From a virus: DNA of 38,794 nt. Each line of letters starts with the position of its first letter. The first letter of the stretch is position 1. Of this stretch, positions 4,767 through 33,146 are shown piece after piece. Both the position numbers and the translations under genes were made by a program. The DNA is taken from positions 1-38,794 of IMG/VR virus record IMGVR_UViG_3300013094_000008. The stretch is one strand, 5' to 3'. The notes below the pieces were generated by a model, which was given only the letters and a program-made list of their open reading frames with translations, did not search any database and had not been told where the DNA came from.

Positions 4767-4979
4767 TATTTGATGTAAATATGGTGGAATAATGGCTTTT
4801 TTAAGTCTCTCATAATCTTCACAAAGTTTATTATGACTATCAATAAAATGCCCCATCTGTGTAAACAGGTTGGCAAGTGATTGATTCAACTGTGCTTGGT
4901 TCAACATCAGTTGGCGTTGTTGTGTTTCTAATCGTTCTAATCTTTCGTATGGGTCTTCAATGTCTTCAAACAAGTTCAT
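4758..4979 (-). CDS. Coiled-coil hypothetical protein, 73 aa
   Basis: Small helical protein (MNLFEDIEDPYERLERLETQQRQLMLNQAQLNQ...) with leucines and methionines spaced as in a coiled coil over residues 10-60. Its ATG at 4979 overlaps the upstream GIY-YIG stop by four bases. It is the last gene before the box at 4753-4766, and its stop lies within that box. Function unknown. Confidence 0.65.
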   Translation of the reverse strand: MNLFEDIEDPYERLERLETQQRQLMLNQAQLNQSLANLFTQMGHFIDSHNKLCEDYERLKKAIIPPYLHQIDK

Positions 4980-5323
4980 TTTATAAGTTCCTTAATATGT
5001 AGAAATCGTGGACTTTTTACAGTTTTGTCTTTGGGTTTAATAACTTCTTTTAATACAACAGGGGCGTTAGCGGCATAAGATTGATTAAGACATTCTGGTT
5101 CTTCAAATACCTGTTTGATGAGTTGTAGTTCCAGTTCACGCATTTCCTGTTCATTACCCCACGCTACTATTTCTCTTGTCCAATCTTCACTGTCTTGTAT
5201 AATGCTTTTATTTATTAAATCACTACTGGTAATGTAGCCATCATTGGTGGTGCCTTTGTGACTACCAATGTAATACTTACCATCTGGCAAGTGTTTCCAT
5301 ACATAAACAAATGTATTTTTCAT
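4976..5323 (-). CDS. GIY-YIG endonuclease-like protein, 115 aa
   Basis: The N-terminus (FVYVWKHLPDGKYYIGSHKG...DGYITSSD) has the GIY-YIG layout: a degenerate first triad (YVW), an intact YIG and a following DGY element. The invariant Glu is probably in EMRELELQLIKQ. No DNA-binding repeat follows, so this is a single-domain form. It shares its N-terminal layout with the GIY-YIG gene just upstream and may come from a duplication. The start at 5323 overlaps that gene by four bases. Confidence 0.75.
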   Translation of the reverse strand: MKNTFVYVWKHLPDGKYYIGSHKGTTNDGYITSSDLINKSIIQDSEDWTREIVAWGNEQEMRELELQLIKQVFEEPECLNQSYAANAPVVLKEVIKPKDKTVKSPRFLHIKELIK

Positions 5324-5814
5324 TTCTTTTTAACTCCTGTCAATGTTTTACTAATCTTGTCTGCCCAAGTTATTTCTCTACCCAACATCTTTTGTCTAAT
5401 CTTTTCTTTAGTTTCTTGGGACATAGGTTTGCGAGAAGGGGTCTTTCTTTTTGTTGTCCGCATTTTGGTTTTAGCGGCTTCTGTGTGTGCCTTAAAGTAA
5501 AACTTACCATTGCCATTGTTCATATTATACATTAATGGGTTGTGTTTGGCATCAAATGCTGTGAGTATTTGTGTTTCCCATAGCACAACTTCTTCTGCTG
5601 TTACACCTATAAACAATATCTCTCTACGCCAATGGCTTGGGCATTTTTGTATTAGTTCTTTAACTAACTTGCTTGAGCATACATATCCATCATTAGGGTG
5701 TGATAGTTTAGCCCATCGTGCTCCAATGTAAAACTTGTTGTTGGTAATGTTAGTCCACTTGTAGACATAAGGTTGATAAATGGCATCAGTTTGTAATAAT
5801 CTTTTTTCGCACAT
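5320..5814 (-). CDS. GIY-YIG endonuclease with NUMOD3-like C-terminus, 164 aa
   Basis: The N-terminal domain has YVYKWTNITNNKFYIGARWAK...NDGYVCSSKLV, with a YVY and YIG pair, RREILFIG around residue 68 and a catalytic-type Glu in VVLWETQIL. The C-terminal part (KPMSQETKEKIRQKMLGREITWADKISKTLTG) matches NUMOD3-type DNA-binding motifs of homing endonucleases. It probably makes a site-specific DNA break. No intron or split host gene is visible beside it, so it is a free-standing endonuclease. Confidence 0.85.
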   Translation of the reverse strand: MCEKRLLQTDAIYQPYVYKWTNITNNKFYIGARWAKLSHPNDGYVCSSKLVKELIQKCPSHWRREILFIGVTAEEVVLWETQILTAFDAKHNPLMYNMNNGNGKFYFKAHTEAAKTKMRTTKRKTPSRKPMSQETKEKIRQKMLGREITWADKISKTLTGVKKK

Positions 5815-5815
5815 A

Positions 5816-6235
5816 TCAATCCCACCTTGTAGTTTTTCTAAATGCTCTGGTTTTGATTTCTATATTCAAATCAATGCCGTGTATTTGACACCAGATTTCT
5901 CTTAAACACATTGCGGCTTTCCAACTCAACTTCTTGTTATCCCAGTTCCTATCTCGTTTGTCCATAACACGAGGTGTAGTTCTGTGATGTAGGAGTATTT
6001 CATCCCTTACTTGTTCAAGTGCTGATGACTGGAATCCCTTGATGTATTGCGGGTGTTTGGCTTGTATGCGTTCTATTACACCAATCAGTAATAACCAATC
6101 GCTATCACTAAATGAGTGGAAATATGTATTCCACAAATAATGGTCATCTATGCGTAATGTTTTATTTGCCACTTGTTCATTTAGGTATTCAGCAAGTGAT
6201 TCCCATAAATCAATGGCGTAGTCTTCTGTTTTCAT
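5816..6235 (-). CDS. Hypothetical protein, 139 aa
   Basis: Unrecognised protein beginning MKTEDYAIDLWESLAEYLNEQV, helical and Trp-rich, with a basic C-terminal third (KRDRNWDNKKLSWKAA, IKTRAFRKTTRW). The ATG at 6235 was chosen over one at 6250 because AAAGGAG lies six bases upstream; the 6250 ATG is part of that ribosome site region. It is the first gene after the structured-RNA region and leads into the two GIY-YIG genes. Function unknown. Confidence 0.65.
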   Translation of the reverse strand: MKTEDYAIDLWESLAEYLNEQVANKTLRIDDHYLWNTYFHSFSDSDWLLLIGVIERIQAKHPQYIKGFQSSALEQVRDEILLHHRTTPRVMDKRDRNWDNKKLSWKAAMCLREIWCQIHGIDLNIEIKTRAFRKTTRWD

Positions 6236-6256
6236 ATCAACTCCTTTCATATATAA

Positions 6257-6276
6257 GTGCGGACTTGCGTCCTCAC
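6257..6276 (-). ncRNA. GCAA-tetraloop hairpin in the leader of the 139-aa gene
   Basis: On the minus strand GUG-A-GGAC, loop GCAA, GUCC-G-CAC forms an eight-position stem with one A-G mismatch capped by a GNRA tetraloop. It lies a few bases before the AAAGGAG ribosome site. A further small ACGC-AATG-GCGT hairpin lies just upstream. It may belong to the 5' leader of this gene rather than to the larger RNA. Confidence 0.5.
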
Positions 6277-6316
6277 GCCATTGCGTATCGCTTCGCTCTA
6301 CTTATGGCATTTCTTA

Positions 6317-6328
6317 TTTTTATTTATC
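6317..6328 (-). promoter_or_regulatory. NATAAATA promoter-like box
   Basis: Minus strand GATAAATAAAAA, between the three-way junction at 6344-6401 and the gene at 5816-6235. It would start a transcript near 6315 that carries the 6257-6276 hairpin in its leader. Confidence 0.45.
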
Positions 6329-6343
6329 TCATTTCAAATAAAT

Positions 6344-6897
6344 GCGTAAGCAACTTGCGTTTGCCAACAGGACGAGCAAAGCGAGTGCTTTGGCATTACG
6401 CAGGTGTTGTTGAGCGTAGCGAAAGAACACCTTTTACTTGTTGTTTTGTTTTTTGTCATCAGCCTATTCACATATCCATAGTTTAGCACCAGCACTTTTT
6501 TGAAAAGTGGCGACCAGGATACGGTGGTTTTATTGATTTATGTCCTTGGCTGTATCTGCCTCGTAATATATGTGATTGCTCTTCTGCGTCTATAGTTTAA
6601 TGCTTTCGCACCCTGCTTTTGGTCTAACCGCATTCTACATTAGGCAATGTCTTGCCATAGTATAAAGTCACCATATATTATCGTAGTCGTAAGAGGTAGT
6701 CATTATTTCGTGTTACTATCTTACATCTATGGACGGGTTTTGGTTTAACCCCCAATGTAAAGTTATTAAGTCTGGTATCACCCAACCAAGCCACTAATAC
6801 GGTGTCCATAGTATAGAGGAGATTGTGCTTTGTCAGCGTTTGATATGATATTAGTAGAGGGAGCGAACCCAAGTAATACCAGACTCAATAACTTTAC
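6344..6897 (-). ncRNA. Candidate large structured non-coding RNA (about 550 nt or more)
   Basis: This occupies most of a 679-base gap without a credible gene. Helices visible on the minus strand: a 25-bp helix (6757-6781 with 6873-6897) enclosing a nine-pair helix (6791-6799 with 6849-6857); hairpins at 6735-6751, 6689-6724, 6601-6610 (UGC-GAAA-GCA), 6493-6509 and 6402-6432; and a compact three-way junction at 6344-6401 with a GCAA loop. Every imperfection in the first two helices is G-U on the minus strand but A-C on the plus strand, so selection appears to act on minus-strand RNA. A promoter-like box ends directly before the 5' base. Large phage RNAs such as GOLLD and ROOL are precedents in size and setting, but I cannot assign this to either class. 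The 3' end is uncertain. Confidence 0.7.
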
Positions 6898-6898
6898 T

Positions 6899-6910
6899 AT
6901 TTTATTTATC
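6899..6910 (-). promoter_or_regulatory. NATAAATA promoter-like box of the structured RNA
   Basis: Minus strand GATAAATAAAAT. Six bases past the GATAAATA core is base 6897, which is exactly the first paired base of the 25-bp helix. This is the same geometry that places hairpins at the 5' ends of the predicted transcripts from 35-48, 1648-1661 and 4753-4766. Confidence 0.5.
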
Positions 6911-6914
6911 TTCT

Positions 6915-7121
6915 TTACTTGAAAAGTATGTGAGTTGCTATGATTCCTACTGAACCTGTTAATACTGACCATAAAATCATATTGATTCTATCAGTAATCT
7001 TGTCATTATATTTTTGACTTTGTTCAAGGTGCGACTTCATATCTTTTTTAATCTCGCACACATCATCAACTAATACATCAACTTTAGTTTCTACTATTGC
7101 TAATCTTTCATTAGTTTCCAT
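6915..7121 (-). CDS. Small XhlA-like membrane protein, lysis candidate, 68 aa
   Basis: Residues 1-45 (METNERLAIVETKVDVLVDDVCEIKKDMKSHLEQ...) form a likely coiled coil. They are followed by one hydrophobic segment at about residues 48-66 (MILWSVLTGSVGIIATHILF) and a terminal Lys. This order, coiled coil then C-terminal membrane helix, is that of XhlA/haemolysin-type phage lysis accessory proteins. The ATG at 7121 was chosen over an in-frame TTG at 7133. It overlaps the Dps-like gene by 11 bases. It could also be a small spanin- or anchor-like protein. Confidence 0.55.
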   Translation of the reverse strand: METNERLAIVETKVDVLVDDVCEIKKDMKSHLEQSQKYNDKITDRINMILWSVLTGSVGIIATHILFK

Positions 7122-7566
7122 ATTCGTTTCCAATCGTTGAGCGTAGCATCCAACAGAACTTGTGTAGTTTACGCACTTGGTCTTGTGCGTAGTTGGCTAT
7201 GTCATCGTGTTCTCTATCAGCATTAGCGGCATCTTCAAGTTGTTCATATACAATAATCAAAGTGTCAATGTCATCATATACGCTTTGTAAATATTCATCA
7301 CCGTCACCATCATCATAAACAGGAATATCCATAACATCACTTTCGCTAATAATCTCAGCAATGCTTTTTGGAAACTCTGCTTTAACTGTGCGTAACAACT
7401 CACCAATAGTATCAATCTCTTCTTGTAGTTCTTCATAAATCTTTTGTAGAAGTTTATGATTACTATAAAAGTTGGGACCAGTAATATTGGCGTGTGCGGC
7501 GTGTGACTTATAATAAGTCATAAAGTTAGTCGCAAATGTTTTGGTTAAGGCTTGTTGTATATTCAT
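7111..7566 (-). CDS. dps-like: Dps/ferritin-like protein, 151 aa
   Basis: The protein has the Dps helix-bundle signature: SHAAHANITGPNFYSNH at residues 21-37, then KIYEELQEEIDTIGELLR at about 42-59. Against E. coli Dps, H25, H37, D52 and E56 fall on four ferroxidase ligands (H51, H63, D78, E82), while the D67 position is Gln. A long third helix (YLQSVYDDIDTLIIVYEQLEDAAN) and a fourth (VRKLHKFCWMLRSTIGNEY) complete the bundle. Dps proteins store iron and protect DNA from oxidation as 12-mers. The start lacks a Shine-Dalgarno and lies five bases after a CTAAATA box, so the transcript may be leaderless. It sits between the ejection genes and the XhlA-like gene. Confidence 0.82.
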   Translation of the reverse strand: MNIQQALTKTFATNFMTYYKSHAAHANITGPNFYSNHKLLQKIYEELQEEIDTIGELLRTVKAEFPKSIAEIISESDVMDIPVYDDGDGDEYLQSVYDDIDTLIIVYEQLEDAANADREHDDIANYAQDQVRKLHKFCWMLRSTIGNEYGN

Positions 7567-13361: not shown

Positions 13362-13373
13362 TTTTATTTATAC
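13362..13373 (-). promoter_or_regulatory. NATAAATA promoter-like box before the ejection genes
   Basis: Minus strand GTATAAATAAAA, with an exact TATAAATA core at 13365-13372, in the short gap between the giant repeat protein and the ejection operon. The predicted start near 13359 leaves a leader of about 13 bases containing AAGGA. Confidence 0.5.
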
Positions 13374-13374
13374 T

Positions 13375-16300
13375 TTATGGTGCTACAGGAGTGTATACAG
13401 GGGCTTGATACAATGGTAATGATGGTTGTCCCTGTCCCTGTGCCATATTCATTTCTGCTGGAATCGTTCCAGTTAAATATGGAGCCATTGCTGTATTTGT
13501 TCCTTTTACATAGTTTTGACTTGGTGTAAAGTTCCAAGAACCTTGTGCTTGATTTTGACCAATATTTATTCCATTTGGCACAACTGGTTTTGGTTGTGTT
13601 CCCCAACTCCAAGGACTTTCACCAAGATAACCATTGCTACTACTTGTTCCACTTGGATTGCCATTGATTGGCACATATGGAATATAAGGCGTTGTAGGAA
13701 CAACTGGAGTTGTAGTTGTATCAGTTGTGTCTGTTGGTGTTGTGGTCCCAGTATCAGTTGGTGTTGTATCAGTTGATGGGGTTGTGTTTACAACACTACC
13801 AGTTGTATTATCAGTAGTCAATGTGCTTCCATCATCAAATGTGGTTGTGCTGGTTCCATTACCATTATCTATAGTAGGTCCAACAGGAATATTTGTATCA
13901 GTTGTAACGCCACCAGTTGTATCTTTTGGTGATGTAATAGTTACAGTTCCCATATCGTATGGGTCTTCAGTTGTTCCACTACCGCCAGTGCCAGGTGTTG
14001 TAGTAACAGTAGAAGGTATAGTTATAGGTTCAACAGGCGTTGTAGTTTCTGTAACTGGATTAGGTTCTGTAACTGGTGGTGTTATTGATGTAGTTGGTTC
14101 TGTAACTGGTGGTGTTACAGGTGTAGTTACAGGTGTAGTTGGTTCTGTAACTGGAGTTGTTGGTGTAGTTACAGGTGTAGTTACAGGTGTAGTTGGTTCT
14201 GTAACTGGAGTTGTTGGTGGTGTTACAGGTGTAGTTACAGGTGTAGTTGGTTCTGTAACTGGAGTTGTTGGTGTAGTTACAGGTGTAGAAAGTGTAGGAG
14301 TTTGTAAAACAGTTCCTGTCCACCCCGCCTCTCCAATCATACCAGTAGCATTATCTACAATCATTTGTGATTGTTTACCACTACTATCAGTCATTGTATA
14401 AACTGTTTTAGGGTCAGACGCAGTTCCAGAAAGATATGGCTCAGAAATAGTTCCAGGAGGCAACATACTTGGGTTTAATACACCATTAGAATATGCTGGA
14501 AGTTCGTTTGGATTATAATATGTTTGAGTATTGCTTGTAGTTGTAGGTGTTGGTGTAGTTACAGGAGTTGTAGCAGGTTCTACAGGCGTAGTTGTAGGTG
14601 TTGGTGTAGTTACAGGAGTTGTAGCAGGTTCTACAGGCGTAGTTGTAGGTGTTGGAGTTGTTTGTGTTGTTGTAGGAGTATTTGTGCCTTCAAACTGATT
14701 GATTTGACTTTGTGTAAATCCATCTGCCGTTAAAGCATCTGCTGGAATATTAATACCTTTTAAGTAACTTAATGGAAGTCCGCCATTAGGATTAGCCAAC
14801 TGTTGTGGCGTTACACCGCCCGCTAATAGTTGTTGTGGACTTTCGCCATATGCCCAATACATTGTAGATGGACTTACTCCATCTTGAACTAACTGTCCAG
14901 GAGTAATACCATCATTTAACAATGTTTGTGGACTTATTCCTGCTTTATATAAAGTGGCTTGGTCAACTCCAGCATTTAATAACTGTTGCGGAGTTTGGTT
15001 GTCAAATAACATTAAGTTATTGACAGTATCACCAGCCGCTAATAACTGTTGGTCAGTTACGCCAGCCGCTGTTAGTTGTGTATCGTTAACGCCACTATTT
15101 AATAAAGTTTTAGGACTAACACCTTCAGACAATAATGTAGATGGTGTTACACCAGCCTGAACTAACTGTTGTGGAGTTACATTATCATTCAATAATGTTT
15201 GACTATTGACACCAGCCTGAATCAACTGTTGTGGGCTTATTCCACTTGATAATAACTGTTGAGAAGTTTCACCAGCATTTAACATTTGTTGTGGTGTAAC
15301 ACCATACCATTCTAAAGTATTTGGATTTGCCCCGCCCGCTATTAGTTGTGGGATTGACGCACCATCTTGAACTAAAGTAGATACATTATATCCTTTTTGA
15401 TATAATATTCCTGCGTCTGCTCCAGCCGCCAATAGTTGGTTAACAGGTGCTCTATCAGCAATCAATGTTGATAAAGGCACACCTTCACTTTCTAATGTAG
15501 ATACAGGCACACCATTCCAAATAGCCATTTGTGGATTTGAAACATCAGTGTTAACTGGAGTAGGTGTTGGTGTAGTTACAGGAGTTGGCTCTACAGGAGT
15601 TGGCTCTACAGGAGTTGATGTCGTTGTAGGTGTAGTTGTTGTAGGTGTAGTTGTTGTAGGTGTAGTTACAGGAGTTGGCTCTACAGGACTTGGTGTCGCT
15701 GTAGGTGTAGTCGCTGTAGGTGTTGTAGTTTTTGGTGCGAAATCACTTGCTGGATAACCAGCCGCTTCAAGTTGAGCAGGAGTTGCGTAAGTAGTTAACT
15801 GACTTGATGGAACGCCCATTTGTTGTAATGTAGATAATGGAACGCCATAACCAAGATATAGTTGTGTTGCTGTAGTTTGTCCAGCATTTATAAATGATTG
15901 TAGTTGTTGTGGTGTTGCTCCTGCTTGAACAGCACTATAAACATTCATATGTGTTCCACTTAAATCTGACACACCTGATTTTACTAACTCTGCTGGTGTA
16001 GCACCATTACTGTATAACTCTGCTGGAGTATATCCATTTTGTATTAAACTGTTAACAGCAGGTTGTCCACCATTACTAACAATATTTTGTAAACTTGCTC
16101 CTGCCTGTAACAGTTGTTGTGCTGTTACACCTTGATTCATCATTTCGCTGATACTTCCCCCAGCGTTTAATATTTGTTGTGTTGTAGCACCACCAGCCAT
16201 TAAATCTGCTGTAGTGGCACCCTCACGCATTAATGCTGAGGGTGTAGCACCTTCAGACAATAACTGACTTACACTTACCCCAGCAGTTTCTAACTGATTT

Positions 16301-18345
16301 ACACTTACACCAGAACTTAATAATGTTGCTCCATTTACTCCAGCATTTAACAATGCTTGTGGTGACATACCAGCATTTAATAAAGTAGAAGGTGCTGTGC
16401 CAGATGCTATTAGTTGTTGTGCTGTAATACCATCTTGTATTTCTTGTGCTGTTGATAAACCTAATGTATTTGGATTAGCACCTGCCTGAACTAATGTTTC
16501 AGGTGCTACACCTTCATTCTTTAATACACTTGATGGAATACCTAAATCTAATAAAGTTTTAGGGTCAACACCAGCGGTTAATAAGTTTTGACTACTTTGT
16601 CCGCTTGAATATAACTGTTGTGCTGTAGCACCATCAGCCAATAATGTTTTATCACTAACACCAGCCCCCGCTAATGACCCAGCATTTACCCCGTCATTTA
16701 ACAAAGTTTGTGGGCTTACACCATCAGCCAATAACTGACTTGGGCTAACATATGGACTGTTTACAAATACTTTAGGGTCAACACCAGCGGATAATAAGTT
16801 TTTGGCATTCGCACCATCTGCTACCATAGTAGTTGGATTAGCACCAGCGGCTAATAAATCGCTTGTGTTAGCACCAGCACTGATTAGAGAAGTTAAGTTA
16901 GCACCATCTTTGTATAGTGTTCCAGCACTTACACCATCGTTTAACAATGTAGAAGGACTTACATTATCTCCTAATAAAGTTTTAGGGTCAACTCCAGCAC
17001 CTAATAATGTTTGAGCACTAACACCATCGCTTAACAATGTGTAAGGATTTACTCCATTTTGTGCTAATGTATCACCACTAATACCACCAGCCAATAACTG
17101 ATTTGCTGATAATCCACTGTTTATTAAACTACTTACGCTTACGCCATCATTTACTAATGTAGAAGGTTTTACACCATCAAGTGCTAATGTATAAGGACTT
17201 GCTCCAGCAGTTACTAAATCTGCTGGATTAGCACCTTCATTTAACAATGTTTGAGCACTTACGCCTGATTTATATAACGCACCACTACTTACCCCATCAT
17301 TTAACAGAGTTTGACTATTAACGCCACTATTTAACAATGTTTGTGGAGTTACACCATCATTTAACAATGTTTGTGGGCTTACACCATCTTGAACTAAAGT
17401 AGACGCATTTACGCCACTACTTAATAAAGTTTGTGGATTAACTTGGTCATTTACTAATGTTTGAGCACTAACACCATTTGACATTAGTGTTTGTGGAGTT
17501 ACACCTTCTTGTATCATTGTAGCAGGATTTACGCCCGCTTTAACCATTTGTTGTGTTGTTACGCCTTGTGATGCCAACTGGCTTACATTTACACCAGCCT
17601 GAACTAACCCACTCAAGTTAGCACCAGCGGCTAACAATGTTTGTAGATTTTTTGGAGCACCAAGATATGGAGCCGCTGTAGCACCTAAACCTAATAATGC
17701 TGTTGTGCTTACACCATTTTGTAATAAACTACTGACACTGGCACCGCCAGCCAATAAACTAACTAATGGTGCTTTAGCACCTAATAGTTCACCAACACTT
17801 GCTCCAGCACCTAATAAGTTAGCAACGCTTACACCGCTTGCCATCATATCAGCAACAGACGCACCTGCTCCTAACAATGGTCCCAATGGTGTTCCAGCGG
17901 CTAATAAGTTTGCCGCACTTGCTCCACCACTCAATAAGTTTTCTACAATAGGAGTTGTTAAGTTTTGTGCTCCACCGTAACTACTAATAACACTTTGTAA
18001 TCCAGTGGCACTTGATATGGGAGCGTCAATACTTGCTGTGCTAATAACACCATTTGTTGTGGCTGTTTGTAAACTTGACGCAACTGTATCTGGATTTAAT
18101 CCAGCATTAGTCAAATCTGTAGCAGTTAAATCGCCACTATCAGCAAGTCCTAAAAGTTCTGGGTCAGTAACACCAACCGCTAATAATGCGGCACCGCCAA
18201 CAGTTGCCCAGCCGCCAGGAATGTTATGGTCAACAAAGTTACCAATAGAACTGGCAACATCATTAACAGCATTGCCAACAGAACTGACAACATCGCCTAT
18301 AGCATTACCAACATCACTTATGACACTTCCAACAAATCCACCCAT
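13375..18345 (-). CDS. Giant decapeptide-repeat virion-associated protein, 1656 aa
   Basis: Residues 1-75 are Gly/Val-rich and amphipathic to hydrophobic (GGFVGSVISDVGNAIGDVV..., WATVGGAALLAVGV). Residues about 135-865 and 950-1220 are near-continuous ten-residue units of the type T-L-L-N-D-G-V-S-P-Q, roughly 100 in all, with Leu at two neighbouring positions and an invariant-looking Gly. Three Thr/Pro-rich linkers (about 870-945, 1220-1270, 1330-1430) separate the blocks. A Gly/Asn-rich C-terminal part ends in Tyr/Pro-rich sequence. I do not recognise a named family; a Leu-rich solenoid is plausible. Its place between tail and ejection genes suggests a virion component, either an adhesin or an internal protein. 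AAAGGA supports the start. Confidence 0.7.
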   Translation of the reverse strand: MGGFVGSVISDVGNAIGDVVSSVGNAVNDVASSIGNFVDHNIPGGWATVGGAALLAVGVTDPELLGLADSGDLTATDLTNAGLNPDTVASSLQTATTNGVISTASIDAPISSATGLQSVISSYGGAQNLTTPIVENLLSGGASAANLLAAGTPLGPLLGAGASVADMMASGVSVANLLGAGASVGELLGAKAPLVSLLAGGASVSSLLQNGVSTTALLGLGATAAPYLGAPKNLQTLLAAGANLSGLVQAGVNVSQLASQGVTTQQMVKAGVNPATMIQEGVTPQTLMSNGVSAQTLVNDQVNPQTLLSSGVNASTLVQDGVSPQTLLNDGVTPQTLLNSGVNSQTLLNDGVSSGALYKSGVSAQTLLNEGANPADLVTAGASPYTLALDGVKPSTLVNDGVSVSSLINSGLSANQLLAGGISGDTLAQNGVNPYTLLSDGVSAQTLLGAGVDPKTLLGDNVSPSTLLNDGVSAGTLYKDGANLTSLISAGANTSDLLAAGANPTTMVADGANAKNLLSAGVDPKVFVNSPYVSPSQLLADGVSPQTLLNDGVNAGSLAGAGVSDKTLLADGATAQQLYSSGQSSQNLLTAGVDPKTLLDLGIPSSVLKNEGVAPETLVQAGANPNTLGLSTAQEIQDGITAQQLIASGTAPSTLLNAGMSPQALLNAGVNGATLLSSGVSVNQLETAGVSVSQLLSEGATPSALMREGATTADLMAGGATTQQILNAGGSISEMMNQGVTAQQLLQAGASLQNIVSNGGQPAVNSLIQNGYTPAELYSNGATPAELVKSGVSDLSGTHMNVYSAVQAGATPQQLQSFINAGQTTATQLYLGYGVPLSTLQQMGVPSSQLTTYATPAQLEAAGYPASDFAPKTTTPTATTPTATPSPVEPTPVTTPTTTTPTTTTPTTTSTPVEPTPVEPTPVTTPTPTPVNTDVSNPQMAIWNGVPVSTLESEGVPLSTLIADRAPVNQLLAAGADAGILYQKGYNVSTLVQDGASIPQLIAGGANPNTLEWYGVTPQQMLNAGETSQQLLSSGISPQQLIQAGVNSQTLLNDNVTPQQLVQAGVTPSTLLSEGVSPKTLLNSGVNDTQLTAAGVTDQQLLAAGDTVNNLMLFDNQTPQQLLNAGVDQATLYKAGISPQTLLNDGITPGQLVQDGVSPSTMYWAYGESPQQLLAGGVTPQQLANPNGGLPLSYLKGINIPADALTADGFTQSQINQFEGTNTPTTTQTTPTPTTTPVEPATTPVTTPTPTTTPVEPATTPVTTPTPTTTSNTQTYYNPNELPAYSNGVLNPSMLPPGTISEPYLSGTASDPKTVYTMTDSSGKQSQMIVDNATGMIGEAGWTGTVLQTPTLSTPVTTPTTPVTEPTTPVTTPVTPPTTPVTEPTTPVTTPVTTPTTPVTEPTTPVTTPVTPPVTEPTTSITPPVTEPNPVTETTTPVEPITIPSTVTTTPGTGGSGTTEDPYDMGTVTITSPKDTTGGVTTDTNIPVGPTIDNGNGTSTTTFDDGSTLTTDNTTGSVVNTTPSTDTTPTDTGTTTPTDTTDTTTTPVVPTTPYIPYVPINGNPSGTSSSNGYLGESPWSWGTQPKPVVPNGINIGQNQAQGSWNFTPSQNYVKGTNTAMAPYLTGTIPAEMNMAQGQGQPSLPLYQAPVYTPVAP
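14095..14290 (-). repeat. 54-bp tandem repeat encoding Thr/Pro/Val linker
   Basis: The same core recurs at 14141, 14195 and 14249 (period 54 bases, 18 residues), with a shorter spacing of 45 before the first. It encodes TTPVTEPTTPVTTPVT-type linker in the giant repeat protein. The near-identity of copies points to recent slippage or unequal recombination. Confidence 0.8.
14541..14660 (-). repeat. 51-bp tandem repeat encoding TPTPTTTPVEPATTPVT
   Basis: Copies begin at 14541, 14592 and 14643 (period 51 bases, 17 residues); the first two are complete and essentially identical, the third partial. It is a second Thr/Pro linker of the giant repeat protein. Confidence 0.8.
14700..15500 (-). repeat. 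30-bp coding repeats, second decapeptide block
   Basis: Diverged 30-base units encoding the decapeptide of the giant protein, about 25-28 units by spacing. They are less alike at DNA level than at protein level, so the repeat is old and kept by selection on the protein. Confidence 0.75.
15750..17960 (-). repeat. 30-bp coding repeats, first decapeptide block
   Basis: About 70 diverged 30-base units (estimated from spacing, not counted one by one). Some neighbouring units around 17270-17400 are nearly identical in DNA, which suggests recent local duplication inside an old array. Confidence 0.75.
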
Positions 18346-28012: not shown

Positions 28013-28025
28013 GATTTATTTATGC
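28013..28025 (-). promoter_or_regulatory. NATAAATA promoter-like box before the tail genes
   Basis: Minus strand GCATAAATAAATC, 11 bases after the terminator hairpin at 28036-28058. The predicted start near 28011 leaves a leader of about 17 bases with AGGA. It restarts transcription for the connector and tail genes. Confidence 0.5.
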
Positions 28026-33138: not shown

Positions 33139-33146
33139 TATTTATA
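33139..33146 (-). promoter_or_regulatory. TATAAATA promoter-like box before the portal
   Basis: Exact TATAAATA on the minus strand, followed by CTAAATA, ending directly next to the terminase stop codon. The predicted start near 33133 leaves a 21-base leader with AGGAT. It would drive portal, scaffold and capsid up to the terminator at 28036-28058. Confidence 0.5.

Follow-up and report, generated by a model that had tools for sequence, protein, structure and literature searches.

To our knowledge, only a handful of RNAs as large and complex as the one described here have been found in bacteria and phages, and their functions are all obscure. GOLLD, ROOL and OLE are homo-oligomeric RNAs with poorly understood functions, and GOLLD combines a conserved 3′ region with a less conserved 5′ region (PMC12286853). 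In phage ICP1, an abundant and unclassified non-coding transcript of ~800 nt lies in an ORF-less gap (PMC7567579). The element analysed here, an RNA of ~550 bases encoded by the minus strand at 6343-6897, resembles GOLLD as a large structured phage RNA whose core and 3′ hairpins are common to the members and whose 5′ domain differs or is absent. This is a resemblance only: no sequence or covariance match to GOLLD was found, and GOLLD exceeds 800 nt, vs about 550 nt here, and often lies near tRNA genes, whereas no tRNA neighbour is present here. The rise of GOLLD expression in lysis would fit the late-type box at this locus, by analogy. ROOL is similar in total size (659 nt in one example) and phage setting, and function is unknown for both RNAs, but its model does not match and the present RNA is again without a tRNA neighbour. 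Both GOLLD and ROOL form RNA nanocages, homo-oligomeric in GOLLD and with a conserved quaternary kissing loop, B4, in ROOL. ICP1, a lytic phage, likewise has its large and unclassified RNA where no ORF lies, whereas the only record of the phage collection matched by members of the present RNA is phage DSL-LC06, short chance matches aside. HEARO shares the proximity of HNH endonuclease genes, but a lax cmscan gave no HEARO match and the HNH genes are not adjacent in a fixed arrangement.

The gene-free stretch and its fold

The window, that is, the whole stretch of DNA analysed, is a virus record of 38.8 kb, and the minus strand encodes nearly all of its genes. The host is bacterial and the RNA is a phage element. 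In minus-strand order, terminase, portal and head and tail-type proteins are followed by a Dps/ferritin-like gene at 7111-7566, and then by a 68-codon gene, the RNA stretch, a 144-codon gene, homing-endonuclease-type genes and an HNH endonuclease. The ferritin-like (Dps-type) protein has relatives in about 190 viral loci and is a useful marker for this phage group. Two tandem homing-endonuclease-type genes beside the RNA (4976-5814) share a 36% identical stretch and look like GIY-YIG genes by eye. The gene 3′ of the RNA encodes a protein at 5816-6250 (ATG at 6250), for which a search found no viral relatives.

An earlier note on this DNA had described 6236-6914 as free of credible genes and its minus strand as packed with helices, and both descriptions were upheld. 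No credible gene lies between 6914 and 6251, the minus (coding) strand of 6236-6914 is gene-free, and the ORFs around the stretch (64 aa at 6678-6872, 64 aa at 6778-6972, and 124 aa at 6112-6486 on the plus strand) have no conserved counterparts. Folding the minus strand over 6236-6914 gives -184.7 kcal/mol vs -147.6 ± 5.7 kcal/mol in dinucleotide shuffles (z = -6.5), and the plus strand reaches z -4.1, as the complement should. A long 5′ helix, hairpins, a GAAA-tetraloop hairpin (6601-6610) and a multi-branched core are all present. The end previously placed at 6344 agrees with the last large hairpin (6343-6402), which, followed by UUUAUUU, is the likely 3′ end of the RNA. A promoter-like box had also been noticed at the first paired base; indeed, GATAAATAAAATAG ends at 6897, and the GATAAATAA box (6902-6910) stops five bases short of the first paired base. 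The features are given below in the direction of the RNA, with L numbers denoting the viral loci compared.

6902-6910, minus strand: GATAAATAA box resembling a T4 late promoter, a few bases ahead of where the RNA starts (motif counts; box at the equal place in L004)
6757-6897, minus strand: variable 5′ domain, closed by a helix of 19 bp (arms within 6867-6897 and 6757-6784) with smaller hairpins inside (fold)
6735-6751, minus strand: H1 hairpin GGGU-UAAACCAAA-ACCC, where the conserved core begins (double-sided changes in 3 of 4 pairs, 100% paired)
6731-6734, minus strand: P2, 5′ strand GUCC (GUCC/GGAC becomes ACCC/GGGU in L131)
6683-6730, minus strand: H2 hairpin, extended form, with conserved loop CGAAAUAA (hand alignment; short form in L124, L142, L145 and L146)
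6668-6680, minus strand: P3, 5′ strand (double-sided changes in 7-8 of 8 scored pairs)
6643-6656, minus strand: H3 hairpin GGCAA-GACA-UUGCC (double-sided changes in 3 of 4 pairs)
6585-6632, minus strand: H4 (UGCG/CGCA) around a 7-nt-loop hairpin (6611-6623, loop AAAAGCA) and the GAAA-tetraloop hairpin H5 (6601-6610) (covariation)
6564-6575, minus strand: P3, 3′ strand (covariation counts, RNAalifold)
6548-6560, minus strand: hairpin GGC-AGAUACA-GCC inside the conserved CGAGGCA..GCCAA segment (RNAalifold on the structure-blind alignment; one double-sided change)
6542-6545, minus strand: P2, 3′ strand GGAC, where the core closes (covariation counts)
6476-6509, minus strand: hairpin CACUUUUCAAAAAAGUG, then conserved GUGCUAAAC (sequence comparison of members, no formal test)
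6402-6432, minus strand: 3′ hairpin A, AGGUGUU/AACACCU (by-eye alignment of copies)
6343-6402, minus strand: 3′ hairpin B (6362-6395, UGCCAA/UUGGCA) within the outer stem UGCGUAA/UUACGCA, then UUUAUUU (fold, sequence)
6320-6328, minus strand: second GATAAATAA box, preceding the next gene, whose ATG is at 6250 (motif search)

The conserved core of ~215 nt comprises H1, the closing helix P2, the variable hairpin H2 and a long P3 around a branched region formed by H3, H4 and the GAAA-tetraloop hairpin.

Nine copies and their compensatory changes

Relatives were first fetched via the Dps-like protein of the window. In L004, the equivalent place holds a 773-nt gene-free gap with 73% identity over 322 nt and a fold z of -5.9. 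A profile of the window and L004, run on 80 further loci, found L124/L066 (E 2.7e-25) and L043/L131 (3.6e-11), and conserved-motif scans with iteration added DSL-LC06 (OR003941, L140), L142/L148, L144/L145, L146 and L202. The identical or near-identical pairs L142/L148 and L144/L145 were counted once each, giving nine distinct copies; the eight beyond the window lie in uncultivated phage contigs (L004, L124, L131, L202, L142, L145 and L146) and in the assembled lake phage DSL-LC06. The 215-nt core is alignable across the copies. A covariance model built from eight copies with L146 left out recovers L146 at 1.2e-14, and exactly one RNA copy is found per record. Early pattern scans of viral contigs returned mostly coding sequence, with L004, L124 and L131 as the only real copies. 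A pattern scan of the genome collection gave zero members, and its best match, L149, was rejected as coding sequence resembling an msbA-type ABC transporter by eye.

The conserved core is maintained by compensatory changes in nine phages. The hand alignment of nine sequences gives 94% pairing for 39 pairs, which make up nine helices; 29 of these pairs show a double-sided change, vs a mean of 6.4 and a maximum of 15 under a tree-aware null. Because a hand alignment favours structure, we recounted on a structure-blind MAFFT alignment of eight copies. There, 24 of the 39 proposed pairs change on both sides yet remain paired (90% pairing), a number matched by 0 of 500 shuffles, and sliding the helix partners lowers the pairing from 90% to 36-44%. 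RNAalifold recovers H1, P2, P3, H3 and H4 unaided, extends P3, and finds double-sided changes in 26 of 37 pairs. Tree-aware nulls with substitutions reshuffled along the tree (1000 simulations) yield 5.2 such pairs (maximum 11) for the 39 proposed pairs and 4.9 (maximum 12) for the RNAalifold pairs. Covariation among relatives, on which the earlier note had staked its candidate, is thus strong (24/39 and 26/37 pairs vs a null mean of ~5), and we regard it as practically certain that the structured RNA is real.

Among individual helices, H4 reads AGCG/CGCU or CACG/CGUG in other copies, and H5 reads AUG/CAU, GAC/GUC or CUC/GAG. H2 (83% paired), the H3-outer stem (63%) and the 7-nt-loop stem (63-81%) are less certain. 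Two further 3′ hairpins and the variable 5′ domain are partly shown, by eye. Hairpin A recurs in L004, L202, L124, L142 and L145 in a by-eye alignment, with stems such as GGGUC/GACCC, AGGUCUUC/GAAGACCU and GGAC/GUCC, and most copies have a counterpart of hairpin B, also aligned by eye. L004 retains the 5′ closing helix (6867-6897 with 6757-6784) via two double-sided changes; L131 and L202 lack it, and L145, L124 and L142 have other hairpins in its place.

The RNA is an accessory element and most related phages are without a copy, since the covariance model found none in 50 other related phage contigs and, with filters off, nothing better than E 0.2 in five near relatives. BLAST of the stretch against 50,697 phage records gave short chance matches only. 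The model, run under strict filters and without a positive control, found no copy in 369 genomes belonging to the same class as G071, a Methylococcaceae genome. The flanking genes vary between members, and the downstream genes are mostly unrelated. In the DSL-LC06 genome the RNA stretch carries no annotation, and the paper on this phage, whose predicted host is Pseudomonadota, uses neither ncRNA nor non-coding as a term; an RNA gene of the new family thus sits unannotated in a phage genome that is complete and published. At syntenic positions, the gap in L005 has an ordinary fold, and the 887-nt gene-free gap L007:6912-7798 (minus strand z -3.6) gives no model match and is not of the same RNA family. 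In the related phage L039, which lacks the RNA, a gene-free stretch of 583 nt (L039:7640-8251) carries a ATAAATAA box, after which come a long hairpin and another that resembles a terminator. Both strands of this stretch fold strongly (z -6.0 and -6.9), and it is possibly a different element.

Coding potential and transcription signals

A conserved ORF through the region, the other outcome that the earlier note had set against an RNA, was not found: stops interrupt every RNA-sense frame of the core in the nine copies, and the sole open frame is one antisense frame of L146, the shortest copy. H1 was also considered as a short peptide (GVKTRPV frame) and rejected, with substitutions at first and second codon positions and a stop directly before the frame in L004. 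Between the 5′ hairpin and the core, an ORF of 73-81 codons with a CxxC..KHIxWLS motif occurs at L124:6182-6427 and L148:7489-7710 and ends inside the core; in DSL-LC06 (about 650-750 of L140) the same motif has an in-frame TGA and looks degenerate. The core could belong to an mRNA in L124, L142 and L145, because a small ORF lies there between the 5′ domain and the core.

The GATAAATAA box is over-represented in the window, with 8 copies, all on the minus strand, vs 0.75 expected. The shorter ATAAATA is not clearly over-represented (23 vs 15.5 expected) and is strongly biased in strand, at 22 minus vs 1 plus. In six of the nine copies an ATAAATA stands no more than 300 nt ahead of the core (chance per random 300-nt stretch P 0.07-0.17), and in five or six it reads as a T4-late-like box; in L131 it immediately precedes the core and in L202 the distance is 48 nt. 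Minus-strand examples in the window are 33139-33145, 28017-28023, 13365-13371, 6902-6910 and 6320-6328, and ATAAATA several times closely precedes the portal gene and other late genes. The T4 late promoter is TATAAATA. Judged by motif alone, the ATAAATA boxes resemble it, and ATAAATA in this 39-kb phage looks like a T4-type late promoter; no gp55-like or other late sigma factor was recognised in the window. The window also contains no canonical terminator. In DSL-LC06, a terminator (1268-1285) and a perfect sigma-70 promoter (1293-1321) both lie between the RNA and the next gene.

Class, possible function and alternatives

No Rfam family matched the window at gathering thresholds, and the four weak matches at E<=5 in 6000-7200 are all on the other strand and below their own family thresholds. 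The GOLLD, ROOL and HEARO models, proposed earlier for a cmscan of the minus strand, gave no match. The GOLLD model (RF02032) matched 0 of the nine records at E<=1 and none in the lax cmscan, in searches without a GOLLD positive control. The ROOL model (RF03087) also matched 0/9 at E<=1 and none in the lax cmscan, and the same route found the known L. salivarius pMP118 ROOL at 1.1e-29. HEARO (RF02033) was absent from the lax cmscan searches, one run up to E=5 and others up to E=1, without a HEARO positive control. A literature search found no description of the RNA, which appears to be previously undescribed and not recognisable as GOLLD, ROOL or HEARO. The earlier note had left the choice between a divergent GOLLD or ROOL member and a new class; the former was not borne out in any of the nine copies, with a positive ROOL control, and the latter stands because membership is unsupported.

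The RNA is most likely stand-alone and trans-acting, and probably late, as suggested by the diverse gene contexts, the single copy per genome, the late-like box, and the DSL-LC06 terminator and separate promoter. It would be transcribed as its own unit, in the window from a late-type promoter, and would end before the next gene and accumulate late in infection. Its action would then be in trans, by a stably folded RNA or a complex of RNA and protein comparable to GOLLD and ROOL, and not through control of a neighbouring gene; such a GOLLD/ROOL-like function is drawn by analogy. We consider a separate transcript with trans action quite likely, and fairly likely also the full proposal that 6343-6897 on the minus strand represents a new large structured phage ncRNA family with its own late-type transcription unit, trans-acting like GOLLD and ROOL.

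A cis-regulatory RNA, a riboswitch-like or attenuator leader of the downstream gene, would explain why in most members a gene follows the RNA in the same direction, and the sequences of L124 and L145 show the 5′ hairpin overlapping the Shine-Dalgarno region of the small ORF. However, the mostly unrelated downstream genes leave no conserved target gene, DSL-LC06 separates the RNA from the next gene by a terminator and a promoter, the next gene in the window has its own GATAAATAA box, and the core is much bigger than most known leaders, so this reading is unlikely. Descent from GOLLD or ROOL is very improbable: the size, the phage setting, the environmental metagenomes and the variable 5′ half with a conserved 3′ half, as in GOLLD (PMC12286853), are outweighed by the failure of RF02032 and RF03087 at E<=1 in nine members, the successful pMP118 control (1.1e-29) and the absence of tRNAs from the window, the one record scanned for them.

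The HNH gene 1-4 kb away in several members, the GIY-YIG genes close by in the window and the patchy presence of the RNA could point to a mobile ribozyme or intron-like element, or to a guide RNA of the adjacent homing endonucleases, comparable to HEARO. This is improbable, as neither the group I and group II intron models of Rfam nor HEARO match, the RNA is intergenic and splits no conserved gene, and the HNH gene differs between members in its order and strand with respect to the RNA, with the same HNH gene present in many relatives without the RNA. Non-functional, hairpin-rich intergenic DNA is hardly credible; these phages do carry many small palindromes, and the gene-free stretch of L039 folds strongly without the RNA, but conservation in nine phages with compensatory changes far above the tree-aware null refutes it for the core.

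For the new, trans-acting RNA family, we would guess first at a structural or scaffold function, possibly exerted by an RNA multimer, and put this forward tentatively. It is equally doubtful for now that the RNA forms a class of giant phage RNA unrelated to GOLLD and ROOL in sequence and secondary structure, synthesised in bulk late in infection and self-assembling or scaffolding a particle; if true, giant RNA machines would be a recurrent phage invention. One more class that is independent of these, whose core is compact and well supported and of which several natural variants exist, offers a comparative handle on why phages carry large RNAs, and the compact core is a tractable target for probing and cryo-EM. 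Elsewhere in the window, 667-951 holds a gene for a GroES-like co-chaperonin (Cpn10, E 1.2e-9), and the product of 13375-18345, which has 1656 residues and contains decapeptide repeats (PF25296, 12 stretches), is probably a tail fibre.
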